The position numbers were made by a program, and so were the translations under genes. A DNA stretch of 38,889 nt, from IMG/VR virus record IMGVR_UViG_3300032245_000500, positions 1 to 38,889 of that record; one strand, given 5' to 3'. Of the stretch, positions 1,840-38,889 are shown piece after piece; the first letter of the stretch is position 1; each line of letters starts with the position of its first letter. The notes beneath the pieces were generated by a model that saw only the letters and a program-made list of their open reading frames with translations, was not told where the DNA came from and ran no database searches. The stretch comes from a virus.

Positions 1840-2241
1840 TTATCGAACGTTATGTTCTAGTACTGAGTCACAGCACTGGCACTGATTGAACTGCTTGGGT
1901 GTTGCAAGGTGGCATGTTTGGCATATCACCTCACGTTGTGACTGTGTGTAGTCGTCCAGCGACCAGATGTTGTCAAGTTCGCCACCGTCCTGAAGCATGA
2001 CGATTGGCAACTTGTACTCCCCTTCACGGTCAGTCCAGTCATGTCCGCTGGGTTGTGATTCCACAAGCCACTGGGACTTGTACATAAGGTTACCTTCGGA
2101 CGCCGCTTCATACACGGAGTCAGTGAGGCGTGCGTCTGCTAGGTCAACGCAGTCAACGCACAGTTGCTCCTGTGCGATACACTCAGGACAGACGTTGCTG
2201 ATGGTGAGTGAGTCTTCCTGTGTGTAGGTTACTTCGTTCAT
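1840..2241 (-). CDS. Cys-rich (zinc-ribbon-like) first gene of the leftward operon
   Basis: This 133-residue acidic protein has three Cys pairs: CPECIAQEQLCVDC near residues 18-31, CQTC near 107-110 and CQCCDS near 121-125, suggesting one or two zinc-binding ribbons around a Trp/Asp/Glu-rich middle (WSLDDYTQSQ). It starts at ATG 2241 behind TAAGGAGAG. It is the promoter-proximal leftward gene next to the gene-free region, so it should be among the first proteins made. No named family is recognised. A regulatory or host-targeting role is possible but unproven. Confidence 0.7.
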   Translation of the reverse strand: MNEVTYTQEDSLTISNVCPECIAQEQLCVDCVDLADARLTDSVYEAASEGNLMYKSQWLVESQPSGHDWTDREGEYKLPIVMLQDGGELDNIWSLDDYTQSQREVICQTCHLATPKQFNQCQCCDSVLEHNVR

Positions 2242-2678
2242 TTGTTACTCTCCTTAGTTTTATACTTCCACCGACAATCTATCGGTTCGCCAATTGGATA
2301 CGCCATGAATGTCATCAGACAGGGCGTGCTTTCAAGCCCTGTCTGCGGGGCGTGGCTGGACCGCGAGCCTGCGAGCGGGCGCACGCTGGCGGGCGCTCCA
2401 GACACGGCGTTGCGGGGATTCCGCAACGAGCAATCGTGTAGCGCATATGAGGCGACACCTTCTGCTGAATAGGCAGAAGGTTTGAGCCGAATGCGGAACG
2501 ATTTGACACATGGCGTACCATGCAGGCGACTGATAGATTAAAACATAAACGCATCTGGTTGGCAGATGCCGAGCGTGGCTTTGACACGCTGCATCACAGC
2601 CAGCATGCGTGACTCACTGACAAGGCAGTTAGTCTTTGTCTTTCCCATGCGATATGGGATAGGCAAAGTGATAGAACG

Positions 2679-2865
2679 GCAGACGCTTTGCTCCTTGCTT
2701 GCAAGGACAGCAAAGACCTGCTTGGTGATGAGTGAGGCTTCCTTCCGCAATCAAGCGGACCGAGGAACTGCTTACGAACAAGGAGGGACCTGCTTAGCGT
2801 AGCGGGCAGACGCCCGACATTGTGAGGTGCAGACGCCGAGGCTGAACAGAACTGCTTGCAGACGC
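2679..2865 (+). repeat. Four-times repeated CTGCTT / GCAGACGC module inside the RNA
   Basis: GCAGACGC occurs exactly at 2679-2686, 2806-2813, 2829-2836 and 2858-2865, with a variant (GCAGACTACGCC) at 2989-3000. GA(C/A)CTGCTT occurs at 2715-2723, 2765-2773, 2787-2795 and 2849-2857. CTGC and GCAG are complementary, so the pairs can form short helices, as in CTGCTTGCAG at 2852-2861. The alternation suggests a reiterated structural motif within the RNA rather than random recurrence. Confidence 0.6.
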
Positions 2866-3024
2866 TGTTCATAGGAAGCCGAATGAAGAACCCGTTCGGC
2901 ATCAGTTTAAAACAGATTTAAAACAGACAGCACCACCGTCAGTACAAATCTGTTTAGGGGGCGACAGCCCGACAGACAGTATCTCTAGGCAGACTACGCC
3001 TAGTAGTGACAGTCTGTTCAGAGT

Positions 3025-3056
3025 AAAACATGTAGGGGCTTGACCCCTACTGTTTT
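3025..3056 (+). terminator. Terminator-like hairpin at the 3' end of the structured RNA
   Basis: GTAGGGG (3032-3038) pairs with CCCCTAC (3044-3050) around CTTGA. The stem is extended by AAAACA (3025-3030) pairing with TGTTTT (3051-3056), with a single bulged T at 3031. The 3' arm therefore ends in a U-run on the + strand, and because the 5' arm is A-rich it could also act on the minus strand. It lies about 260 bases upstream of the terminase gene with no coding sequence between. It would end the RNA or attenuate read-through into the late operon. Confidence 0.7.
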
Positions 3057-3057
3057 A

Positions 3058-3316
3058 ATCTGTTCGCCTATCTATGTAGGTAACTCTGACTATAAATATT
3101 TCTGTATATAGTGACCCCAGTATAGTACCTGAACAGGACTTTTATAAATATTTCTGTCTAAATAGTTCGTTTTGGTAGTTTGAACGGATTAAGTATATAT
3201 GTACAGTAGATTATATTCGGAAGTCTTTTTAGAGCCTTCCTCATACTGTGACATACTGTTGTACAGATATACTTCTATACGGCGGGCTAAGTCTGCCTAC
3301 AGCAAGGGGACTACGA
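3058..3316 (+). promoter_or_regulatory. A/T-rich leader and promoter region of the rightward operon
   Basis: This gene-free, A/T-rich stretch contains two copies of TATAAATATTTCTGT at 3091-3105 and 3143-3157, starting 52 bases apart. A fair promoter match is TTTGGT (3171-3176) and TATATA (3194-3199) with a 17-base spacer. CATACTG is repeated at 3242-3248 and 3252-3258, and TGTACAG occurs twice near 3200 and 3260. The promoter call is weak on sequence alone, since phage or sigma-factor-specific promoters may differ. The region could also carry the packaging start, because it adjoins the terminase gene. Confidence 0.4.
3091..3157. repeat. Direct repeat pair TATAAATATTTCTGT
   Basis: The 15-base sequence occurs exactly at 3091-3105 and 3143-3157. 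Their starts are 52 bases apart, close to five helical turns, so both would face the same side of the DNA. Position upstream of the terminase operon fits operator, promoter -10 or packaging-site roles. Confidence 0.6.
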
Positions 3317-5206
3317 ATGTCAGGGTTTAAATCAGGCGGGGAGCACCACCTAGCAAAGGGTGTGGCGCAAGCCAAAGAGCAAGTTCTTGAAAAGGTAAGG
3401 GTGGGCGTCTCCCCTCAGGCGGCTATGATTGCCATAGGCAGAAAGCCAGATACTATCCGTCAGTGGATGGTCAGAGACCCATTATTTGCGGCGGCGCTGG
3501 AAGAGGCTAAGGAAGAAGGAAACAAACAATCCTTTGATGCCCTCGGTGTCCAAAAGGAGTCTATTCCCTTTGCGGAGTTCTCCAAGATGTTTTTTGACCA
3601 GACGGTCTTCCCCCATCATCAGAACTGGATTGACCTTCTGGAGGGGCGCGAACCATCATGGCAACACCAAAATATTATATATGAGCCAGGGGAGTCTAAC
3701 CGACTACTTATCAACGTGCCCCCTGAGCACGCTAAGTCCACCGTTGTTACGGTGAACTATCCGACTTACCGCATTGCCCTCAATCCCAACATCCGCATCA
3801 TTGTGGTATCAAAGACGATTACAAAGGCACGTGAGTTCGTATACGCTATCAAGCAACGATTGTCCCATCCACGCTGGCTCAAACTACAGACCGCTTATGG
3901 TCCTGAGGGCGGTTGGAAACAGGACGCAGATACTTGGCGTACCGATACCGTCTATCTTGGGGGTGATGCGCGTAACTCATCTGAAAAAGACCCAACCATT
4001 CAAGCACTAGGTATGGGTGGTCAGATTTACGGCGCTCGCGCAGACTTGATTATTTTGGACGACTGTATAACTACAGCCAATGCTCATGAGTGGGACAAGC
4101 AATTGGACTGGCTACAGAAAGAAGTTATTACCCGTCTGGGTAAAAATGGTAAATTGCTAGTGGTGGGGACCCGAATTGCAGCCAATGACCTTTATAAAGA
4201 ACTACGTAATCCAAAGCACTGGTCTGGTGGCAAAACTCCGTTTACTTATATGGGGATGCCTGCTGTACTGGAGTATAACGAAGACCCCGACAAATGGGTC
4301 ACGCTTTGGAAAGAGTCGGATGTCCCGTGGGATGGGGATGATGACACTCCTCAGGAGAACGGCTTCTACCCCAAGTGGGACGGCAAAGCGCTCAACAAGC
4401 GAAGAAGTGAAGTCACACCATCCACATGGGCATTGGTCTACCAACAAGAAGACATCATGGAAGACTCAATATTCCCGCCAGTTCTCGTGCAAGGAGCGAC
4501 CAATGGGATGCGCAAGCGAGGACCGCTAAAGGCTGGTGCTGCTGGACATCCACCTCAAGTTGAGGGCTACACCATTATTGGTTTTGACCCTGCTATGGCT
4601 GGTAACTCTGCATTCGTAGTAACTAACTACAACAGAGCAGATGGCAAGATTTACGTGTTGGACTGTATCAATATGGAAGACCCAACACCTCAGAAGATTA
4701 GAGCATGCATTGAAGAGTTGGTTCAAAAGTACAAGCCGCAAGAGTTCCGTGTGGAAATCAATGCGCACCAGAAAGCATATGCACTTGATGACGAACTACG
4801 AAACTGGCTCGCTCAATACGGTGTACGCCTTGATGCTCACTTTACAGGAAAAAACAAATGGGACACATCTTTCGGTGTTGCCTCCATGTCAAACCTCATT
4901 GGTACAGAGCGCGATGGCAAACATCAGCGCAATAACATCATTGAACTACCCTCATCAGAAGGTAGCGAAGGACTAAAGGCTTTAACTCAACAGTTGCTTA
5001 CTTGGAAACCAGAGACTAGAGGCAAGACGGATACCGTCATGGCTTTATGGTTTGCGGTAATTAGAGCAAGAGAGTTAATGCAGCAAGCAAGTAAGACGTC
5101 TCAGTACCTTAACAACCGTTGGGCTACAAGACAGCAAATGAATAACCGCTTTGCGGTTAACTTAGATGATGCCTTTGCAGACCAATGGCAAGAACAATAC
5201 GGATAG
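3317..5206 (+). CDS. terL: Terminase large subunit with N-terminal helix-turn-helix
   Basis: This is the packaging motor ATPase and nuclease. The frame is open from 3248, but ATG 3317 has AAGGGGA in position and removes an unlikely Cys-rich leader, giving 629 residues. Residues about 25-67 form a small-terminase-like helix-turn-helix (VSPQAAMIAIGRKPDTIRQW). The ATPase has a deviant Walker A, VPPEHAKST (134-142), and Walker B LIILDD (244-249). The RNase H-like nuclease shows GFDPAMAG (Asp 424), RVEINAH (Glu 480) and KTDTVMA (Asp 572). No separate small terminase gene was found upstream, so the N-terminal domain may supply DNA recognition. It is the first gene of the rightward unit, with the portal following ten bases later. 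Confidence 0.93.
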   Translation: MSGFKSGGEHHLAKGVAQAKEQVLEKVRVGVSPQAAMIAIGRKPDTIRQWMVRDPLFAAALEEAKEEGNKQSFDALGVQKESIPFAEFSKMFFDQTVFPHHQNWIDLLEGREPSWQHQNIIYEPGESNRLLINVPPEHAKSTVVTVNYPTYRIALNPNIRIIVVSKTITKAREFVYAIKQRLSHPRWLKLQTAYGPEGGWKQDADTWRTDTVYLGGDARNSSEKDPTIQALGMGGQIYGARADLIILDDCITTANAHEWDKQLDWLQKEVITRLGKNGKLLVVGTRIAANDLYKELRNPKHWSGGKTPFTYMGMPAVLEYNEDPDKWVTLWKESDVPWDGDDDTPQENGFYPKWDGKALNKRRSEVTPSTWALVYQQEDIMEDSIFPPVLVQGATNGMRKRGPLKAGAAGHPPQVEGYTIIGFDPAMAGNSAFVVTNYNRADGKIYVLDCINMEDPTPQKIRACIEELVQKYKPQEFRVEINAHQKAYALDDELRNWLAQYGVRLDAHFTGKNKWDTSFGVASMSNLIGTERDGKHQRNNIIELPSSEGSEGLKALTQQLLTWKPETRGKTDTVMALWFAVIRARELMQQASKTSQYLNNRWATRQQMNNRFAVNLDDAFADQWQEQYG

Positions 5207-38582: not shown

Positions 38583-38889
38583 TTACCAACTTGCTACGTA
38601 CTCGAACATTGCGTCATCAACGCTTTGTTCTAGTGCTGTGTCTAGTTTCTCAATAGTATCTTTAATGTCTTGCCAGTACCAGTCATCTATTTCTGTACTA
38701 CCGAAAAAGAATCCTAATGTTGGTGGCAGTAGTTCCATTGCTGTTTCTACTGTGCCTTCATCTAATACTTTTTGGCAGTCATCTCGCAACTGAACAAGGT
38801 CCATCTTTGTAAGATGGATAGGAGTGCAGTCATCTACTGCACCAGCGTTGCTAATAATCCAGCCATGAATAGCGTTAGCCTTACGCCAG
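38583..38889 (-). CDS. Small conserved phage protein, C-terminal part (cut by contig end)
   Basis: This is the remainder of the gene that starts at 173. On the circle it is one 118-residue protein; the end copy reads from within residue 17 to the stop at 38585-38583. The internal ATG at 38804 would only give 73 residues and is not the start. Residues 46-118 contain MDLVQLRDDCQKVLDEGTVE, TLGFFFGSTEIDDWYWQDIK and LDTALEQSVDDAMFEYVASW. The Phe/Trp-rich centre and acidic helices suggest a compact soluble protein. No function is known. Confidence 0.85.
   Translation of the reverse strand, partial: WRKANAIHGWIISNAGAVDDCTPIHLTKMDLVQLRDDCQKVLDEGTVETAMELLPPTLGFFFGSTEIDDWYWQDIKDTIEKLDTALEQSVDDAMFEYVASW
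38767..38889. repeat. Terminal direct repeat, right copy
   Basis: Identical to 1-123 (see the left copy). Both copies lie within the same coding gene, so joining them restores one uninterrupted frame, which supports circular closure. Confidence 0.95.

Follow-up and report, generated by a model that had tools for sequence, protein, structure and literature searches.

A conserved mosaic of structured modules upstream of terL in a probable Nanopelagicales phage as a candidate family of large non-coding RNA

On the best reading of the data, this would be a new family of phage-borne non-coding RNA, large in size and modular in build, like GOLLD and ROOL in kind and unrelated to them in sequence. 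The gap between the leftward genes and terL would encode a structured non-coding RNA of ~0.8 kb, transcribed rightward and assembled from interchangeable folded units, namely a 5' domain that is closed, hairpins and an optional multibranch cassette, with its 3' end at or near the hairpin at 3019-3062. Like GOLLD and ROOL, it would most likely be produced during infection as a stable RNA that acts in trans; a protein, or further copies of the same RNA, would dock at its repeated internal loops and conserved hairpin loops. The element has conserved base pairing, a modular make-up, a fixed position and no Rfam match; transcription, its strand, the exact ends, the trans-acting role and the docking are inferences. 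The proposal as a whole, that is a structured + strand RNA of ~0.8 kb with exchangeable domains that acts in trans, stands in our judgement at slightly better than an even chance.

The window (the whole stretch of 38,889 nt that was analysed) begins and ends with the same 123 bases (1-123 and 38767-38889). Identical ends of this kind are the usual sign of a closed circular assembly, and the phage genome is therefore very probably complete, ~38.77 kb in size (about 38,766 bp) and opened at an arbitrary place. The rightward block starts with terL (the ORF opens at 3248 and the likely ATG is at 3317), followed by the portal gene and, further on, capsid genes. The leftward genes start at 2241, and the one that borders the gap had no family match in our searches. 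The gap itself, 2242-3316, makes up 2.8% of the genome. By TerL and capsid the closest cultured phages are two 'Ca. Planktophila' phages (OX376640 and OX376641, ~63% identity), which are cultured phages of Nanopelagicales (PMC10202952), so the host is probably a Nanopelagicales actinobacterium. Streptomyces Beephvirinae phages are the next closest cultured relatives by the same two proteins. No DNA-level match was found in cultured phages, and no relatives of TerL were found in bacterial or archaeal genomes. The features discussed below are given in Table 1.

Table 1. Features in and around the gap between the leftward genes and terL (coordinates of the window)
Feature	Coordinates	Strand	Evidence
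Leftward gene, function not assigned, bordering the gap on the far side from terL	1840..2241	-	Kept beside the gap in relatives
5' domain P, closed by long-range helices 2276-2291/2525-2539 and 2295-2314/2504-2520	2276..2539	+	Compensatory changes, five relatives
Long branched hairpin, helices 2549-2561/2597-2610 and 2565-2577/2585-2595, loop GGCTTTGA	2549..2610	+	Three doubly changed pairs
Short hairpin GACTCACTG...CAGTTAGTC at the P/M border	2611..2634	+	95% of cells paired, no double change
Module indel stretch	2638..2905	+	Present in the window, L005, L006, L007, L009, L030 and L089; cleanly absent in L082, L002, L003 and L008
Cassette M, multibranch, closed by GAACGG/CCGTTC	2674..2897	+	Covariance model R1: ten loci, 228-279 bits
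Terminator-like hairpin GTAGGGG-CTTGA-CCCCTAC with flanking AAAACA/TGTTTT, candidate 3' end	3019..3062	+	-22.2 kcal/mol, z -6.1
D between the hairpin and terL: motifs TATCTCT..TAAATATTTCTGTATATAGT, CTGAACAGGACTTTTATA and TTTGAACGGATTA, hairpin GGAAG..CTTCC	3063..3316	+	Alignment
terL (large terminase), anchors the element	3317..5206	+	PHROG 38, E 1.3e-72

A first-pass annotation of this DNA had described 2262-3057 as gene-free and richer in G+C than its surroundings, and both points hold. Only short overlapping ORFs (at most 102 aa) are present. A protein-coding explanation was rejected because indels between close relatives break the frame: cassette M and its flanks measure 249, 248, 290 or 288 nt in relatives, and since these length differences are not multiples of three no frame is conserved among them. 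The G+C content is about 0.55 (0.52-0.56), against 0.35-0.50 over most of the contig, with the exception of one coding stretch near 22.5 kb that is also at 0.56. A/T skew becomes positive where the region begins, as in the rightward genes. The MFE of 2262-3057 is -357.9 kcal/mol on the + strand (z -10.7) and -337.9 kcal/mol on the - strand (z -7.8). This 796-nt segment lies 87.8 kcal/mol below its shuffles, whereas 22 other segments of 796 nt from the contig lie only 1-48 kcal/mol below theirs. In a scan with 120-nt segments the strongest + strand signals fall inside 2262-3057 and end at ~3060, which shows that the borders had been drawn accurately. The perfect stems reported earlier are present (CAGACAGGGC/GCCCTGTCTG, ACCTTCTGC/GCAGAAGGT and AAACAGATTT/AAATCTGTTT), as is the long helix AATCTATCGGT/ACTGATAGATT with its invariant G-U pair.

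Relatives were collected as 80 IMG/VR loci via TerL, with a few more via DNA motifs; almost all of these homologues are metagenome contigs, some of them incomplete. There is a gap of 0.7-2.4 kb at the same place wherever both neighbours are present, the longest gaps containing possible ORFs. Alignment of the gaps shows pairs that covary in P and, more weakly, in M. The module map is a mosaic in which P, M and D occur in differing combinations. P is common in full only to the window and L082 and is found in part in L002, L003 and L008; M is present in the window and in L005, L006, L007, L009, L030, L089, L101, L102 and L103. In L082 the flanks of the missing indel stretch are 94-95% identical to the window. 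The D module (about 2906-3316), which begins with a covarying hairpin, was found by nhmmer in 78 of the 83 gap sequences and is kept across the TerL family. Two other 5' classes (L007/L009/L030/L102 and L005/L057/L016/L034/L101) are also structured, and both share with P only short pieces such as the GGCTTTGA and GAATA hairpins. A further class (L013/L018) has a folding energy beyond its shuffles, and its double changes, counted on two sequences only, are not above column shuffles. In several relatives, and in the cultured phage E7, D is retained but no strong structure was seen upstream of it; the stretch tested was only 195 nt in E7 and included possible coding sequence in some of the others. 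A search with a degenerate TTTGAAC motif gave 0 matches in the window, owing to one fixed letter.

The P module of the map spans 2276-2634, and the domain closed by its helices is 264 nt long. The hairpins inside P are variable (among them 2432-2437/2498-2503 and 2458-2466/2472-2480) and the inner stems are rewritten with matching changes (TACGCC/GGCGTA, AAACC/GGTTT and TAGCC/GGGCTA). In an alignment of five sequences with 103 pairs, 94.5% of cells pair. Double changes are seen at 15 of these pairs against a shuffle mean of 8.9, a count as high being reached by one of 500 shuffles; for doubly changed cells and for the covariation score none of the 500 was as high, and pairings shifted by 1-3 columns yield only 1-3 double changes. 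Six of the nine pairs of the hairpin at 2458-2480 are doubly changed while its GAATA loop is invariant, and a GAATA loop on a rewritten stem would fit the GNRNA pentaloop pattern of phage boxB hairpins. The GGCTTTGA hairpin reappears with other stem letters in a different 5' class. RNAalifold fits contained 16 double changes in the P class (column-shuffle mean 6.0, maximum 8), 17 in class 2 (mean 7.8, maximum 12) and 37 in class 3 (mean 18.7, maximum 27). Because few sequences were aligned and each structure was fitted to its own alignment, these counts serve as support rather than as formal significance. Taken together, these comparisons leave us in little doubt that the fold in this region has been conserved by evolution.

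The multibranch fold of cassette M is common to nine copies and closes over 224 nt. Its closing helix is changed on both sides in relatives, to GAACAG/CTGTTC and GGACAG/CTGTCC. The internal loop A(A/C)-CUGC / GCAG-ACG is present in four copies (GCAGACG at 2679, 2806, 2829 and 2858), and a fifth is found in L009, L089 and L101 within an extra unit of ~40 nt. Covariation in M is limited because the copies are highly alike: four pairs are doubly changed, a count as high being reached by 29 of 500 shuffles, and none of the 500 was as high for doubly changed cells. The covariance model of M gave strong matches only at the ten known loci among 67 sources.

The terminator-like hairpin with which the region had been said to end is present at 3032-3050 with a modest T-rich tail, but it looks terminator-like on both strands. 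Its stem is rewritten in relatives (GTAGGGG/CCCCTAC, GTCTGGG/CCCAGAC and CTAGGGG/CCCCTAG). It is missing in 8 of the 24 relatives inspected, which keep the TTGACCC letters. The stretch from 3063 to 3316 probably lies outside the folded RNA and carries signals for transcription, packaging or both. D may hold promoter, terminator and packaging signals, the last because the same junction in the Streptomyces phage Immanuel3 contains terminal repeats (see below). By eye only, ~70 residues at the N-terminus of TerL (window 3317-3520) resemble a helix-turn-helix (AAMIAIGRKPDTIRQW), and the proteins searched included none recognised as a separate small terminase, which suggests that TerL itself may read the D region. 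Just before terL, a possible pseudoknot or two alternative stems (AACGG-ATTAACC-t-CCGTT-...-GGTTAAT) replace the GGAAG..CTTCC hairpin in the distant relatives L036, L041 and L055. In L003, and in this relative alone, a tRNA-Arg gene (anticodon ACG, 4923-4995) lies in an insert between D and terL.

The first-pass annotation had proposed a large structured non-coding RNA and had taken a U-G pair as fixing its strand. A conserved, large, structured non-coding element is well supported by compensatory changes in relatives at the same place; a transcribed + strand RNA is likely, on indirect support and with a DNA role as a rival, and the argument from the U-G pair does not stand by itself, since the exceptions seen in relatives lean only slightly to one side. 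In structural RNAs, G-U exceptions usually far outnumber A-C ones. Here the neutral counts of G-U to A-C are 110:111 with the poorly alignable D included, 26:20 when limited to pairs on which both strands agree and 29:17 inside the agreed helices, which amounts to a mild + preference at most. A strand call from G-U counts in single-strand RNAalifold fits was dropped because fits to the - strand yield equal numbers. In every module tested the unpaired positions are purine-rich on the + strand, and the + strand folds better than the - strand in most members; both signs favour a rightward RNA. Part of each may be no more than the base composition normal for a strand transcribed rightward, which, if it is the cause, would itself imply transcription. 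Compensatory pairing alone cannot separate an RNA from a DNA role. No conserved promoter was recognised at the 5' end of the element, the only match being a weak one on the - strand (3148-3119). From the sequence evidence we consider it likely that the element is transcribed as + strand RNA.

The element resembles several known systems. GOLLD is phage-borne and ~0.8 kb long, with a conserved 3' and a less conserved 5' region, aquatic sources and sometimes a tRNA nearby (PMC12286853). The element shares all of these features, the conserved 3' and variable 5' regions being seen in the module map and in the conservation of D, if it is indeed an RNA. It differs from GOLLD in position, being found upstream of terL instead of in a tRNA island. 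GOLLD is also characterised by expression that increases as the host lyses and by assembly into a homo-oligomeric cage. ROOL is a large ornate phage RNA with many helices (PMC12286853), which the element would also be; however, ROOL is more uniform, whereas whole domains are swapped here. The first-pass annotation had considered membership of GOLLD and had named ROOL for comparison, but cmscan of 2200-3260 gave no Rfam match even at E<=10 with lax filters, either to RF02032 (GOLLD) or to ROOL. With Rfam 15 there were 0 matches at the gathering score in the whole window and ten relatives. Membership of either family was therefore rejected, as far as those models can tell. The packaging RNA (pRNA) of phi29 is a phage RNA of the packaging machinery, ~120-174 nt long and phi29-specific. 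The link to packaging is by function in pRNA and by gene position only here, and the element differs from pRNA in length and in having no Rfam match. No description of such an RNA in actinophages was found in the open-licence literature.

Immanuel3 (Beephvirinae; MG518520.1 / NC_048686.1; L105, L106) has the same junction between leftward genes and terL, which is likewise large and non-coding. It has 274-bp direct terminal repeats (1-274 identical to 45821-46094), set in a stretch of >2 kb without annotation that separates the leftward genes from the terminase. In contrast with the element, folding there is only modestly beyond shuffles (z -1.5 to -3.9), and the D and M motifs were not found at the equivalent place. 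The M model also matched 132 nt on the - strand of Immanuel3, but weakly (E 0.0024), and this match was taken as chance.

The main rival to an RNA is a genome-end region that works as DNA, its palindromes and motifs serving packaging (as a terminal repeat or a pac site read by the terminase) or replication as DNA inverted repeats. The terminal repeats in the same junction of Immanuel3 point this way, as do the almost strand-neutral pairing exceptions and the position of D, the best conserved part, next to terL; for the window, a closed assembly, genome ends in this junction would be by analogy with the Immanuel3 repeats. However, close relatives lack P and M or have other sequence in their place, and E7 has no strong structure there, so P and M cannot be an essential packaging signal, and the loops are purine-biased on one strand. 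A DNA role is thus plausible for D and less so for P and M, which are optional, and as an account of the region we think it rather unlikely. A cis-acting leader of the rightward late operon, in which the fold of the transcript would control read-through or translation from terL onward, would suit the position directly upstream of terL, the hairpin at 3019-3062 and the conserved short hairpin right before terL. Against this, 800 nt of replaceable domains far exceeds known leaders, and the letters and number of the domains vary freely while terL stays, which makes it less likely still.

A reading on the opposite strand, either as a leader for the leftward genes or as some other - strand RNA, would be in line with - strand folding that is also beyond chance (z -7.8) and with the weak promoter-like match at 3148-3119. 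We regard it as improbable, because + strand folding is better in most members, unpaired bases are purine-rich on + and A/T skew is positive from the start of the region, as in rightward genes. A divergent member of GOLLD or ROOL would share the size, the aquatic phage source and the conserved 3' and variable 5' parts, and the tRNA-Arg beside the element in L003 would fit. It is contradicted, at the sensitivity of the Rfam models, by the lack of a match, which holds for the window at gathering, for 2200-3260 also at E<=10 with lax filters, and for ten relatives at gathering; it is very improbable. The trans-acting RNA is favoured by loops that stay (GAATA and GGCTTTGA) while stems are rewritten, and by the internal loop that each copy of M carries four or five times. 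That modules are optional and swapped is also easier to reconcile with an RNA acting in trans than with a DNA site that is essential. Counting against this RNA are the near-even G-U and A-C exceptions, the 3' hairpin missing in a third of the relatives inspected and the coincidence of its place with the genome ends in the Streptomyces relatives.

Large ornate RNAs known so far are few, and what they do has yet to be established. The element is found in relatives of cultured phages of Nanopelagicales (acI), which are among the most abundant freshwater bacteria, and natural close relatives with and without whole modules are a ready-made deletion series. It would make testable any tie of large phage RNAs to genome ends and packaging. 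More tentatively, and as less likely than not, it may represent a new class of large phage RNA, in which whole folded modules would be swapped and multiplied at a fixed place by the genome end and which would assemble or recruit partners via the repeated internal loop, possibly tied to DNA packaging or host interaction in abundant freshwater actinophages.

Finally, the gap upstream of terL in L083 shows very strong structure whichever strand is folded (z -18 and -15) and contains perfect long hairpins such as AAAAACCCTCTCC-TTTC-GGAGAGGGTTTTT.
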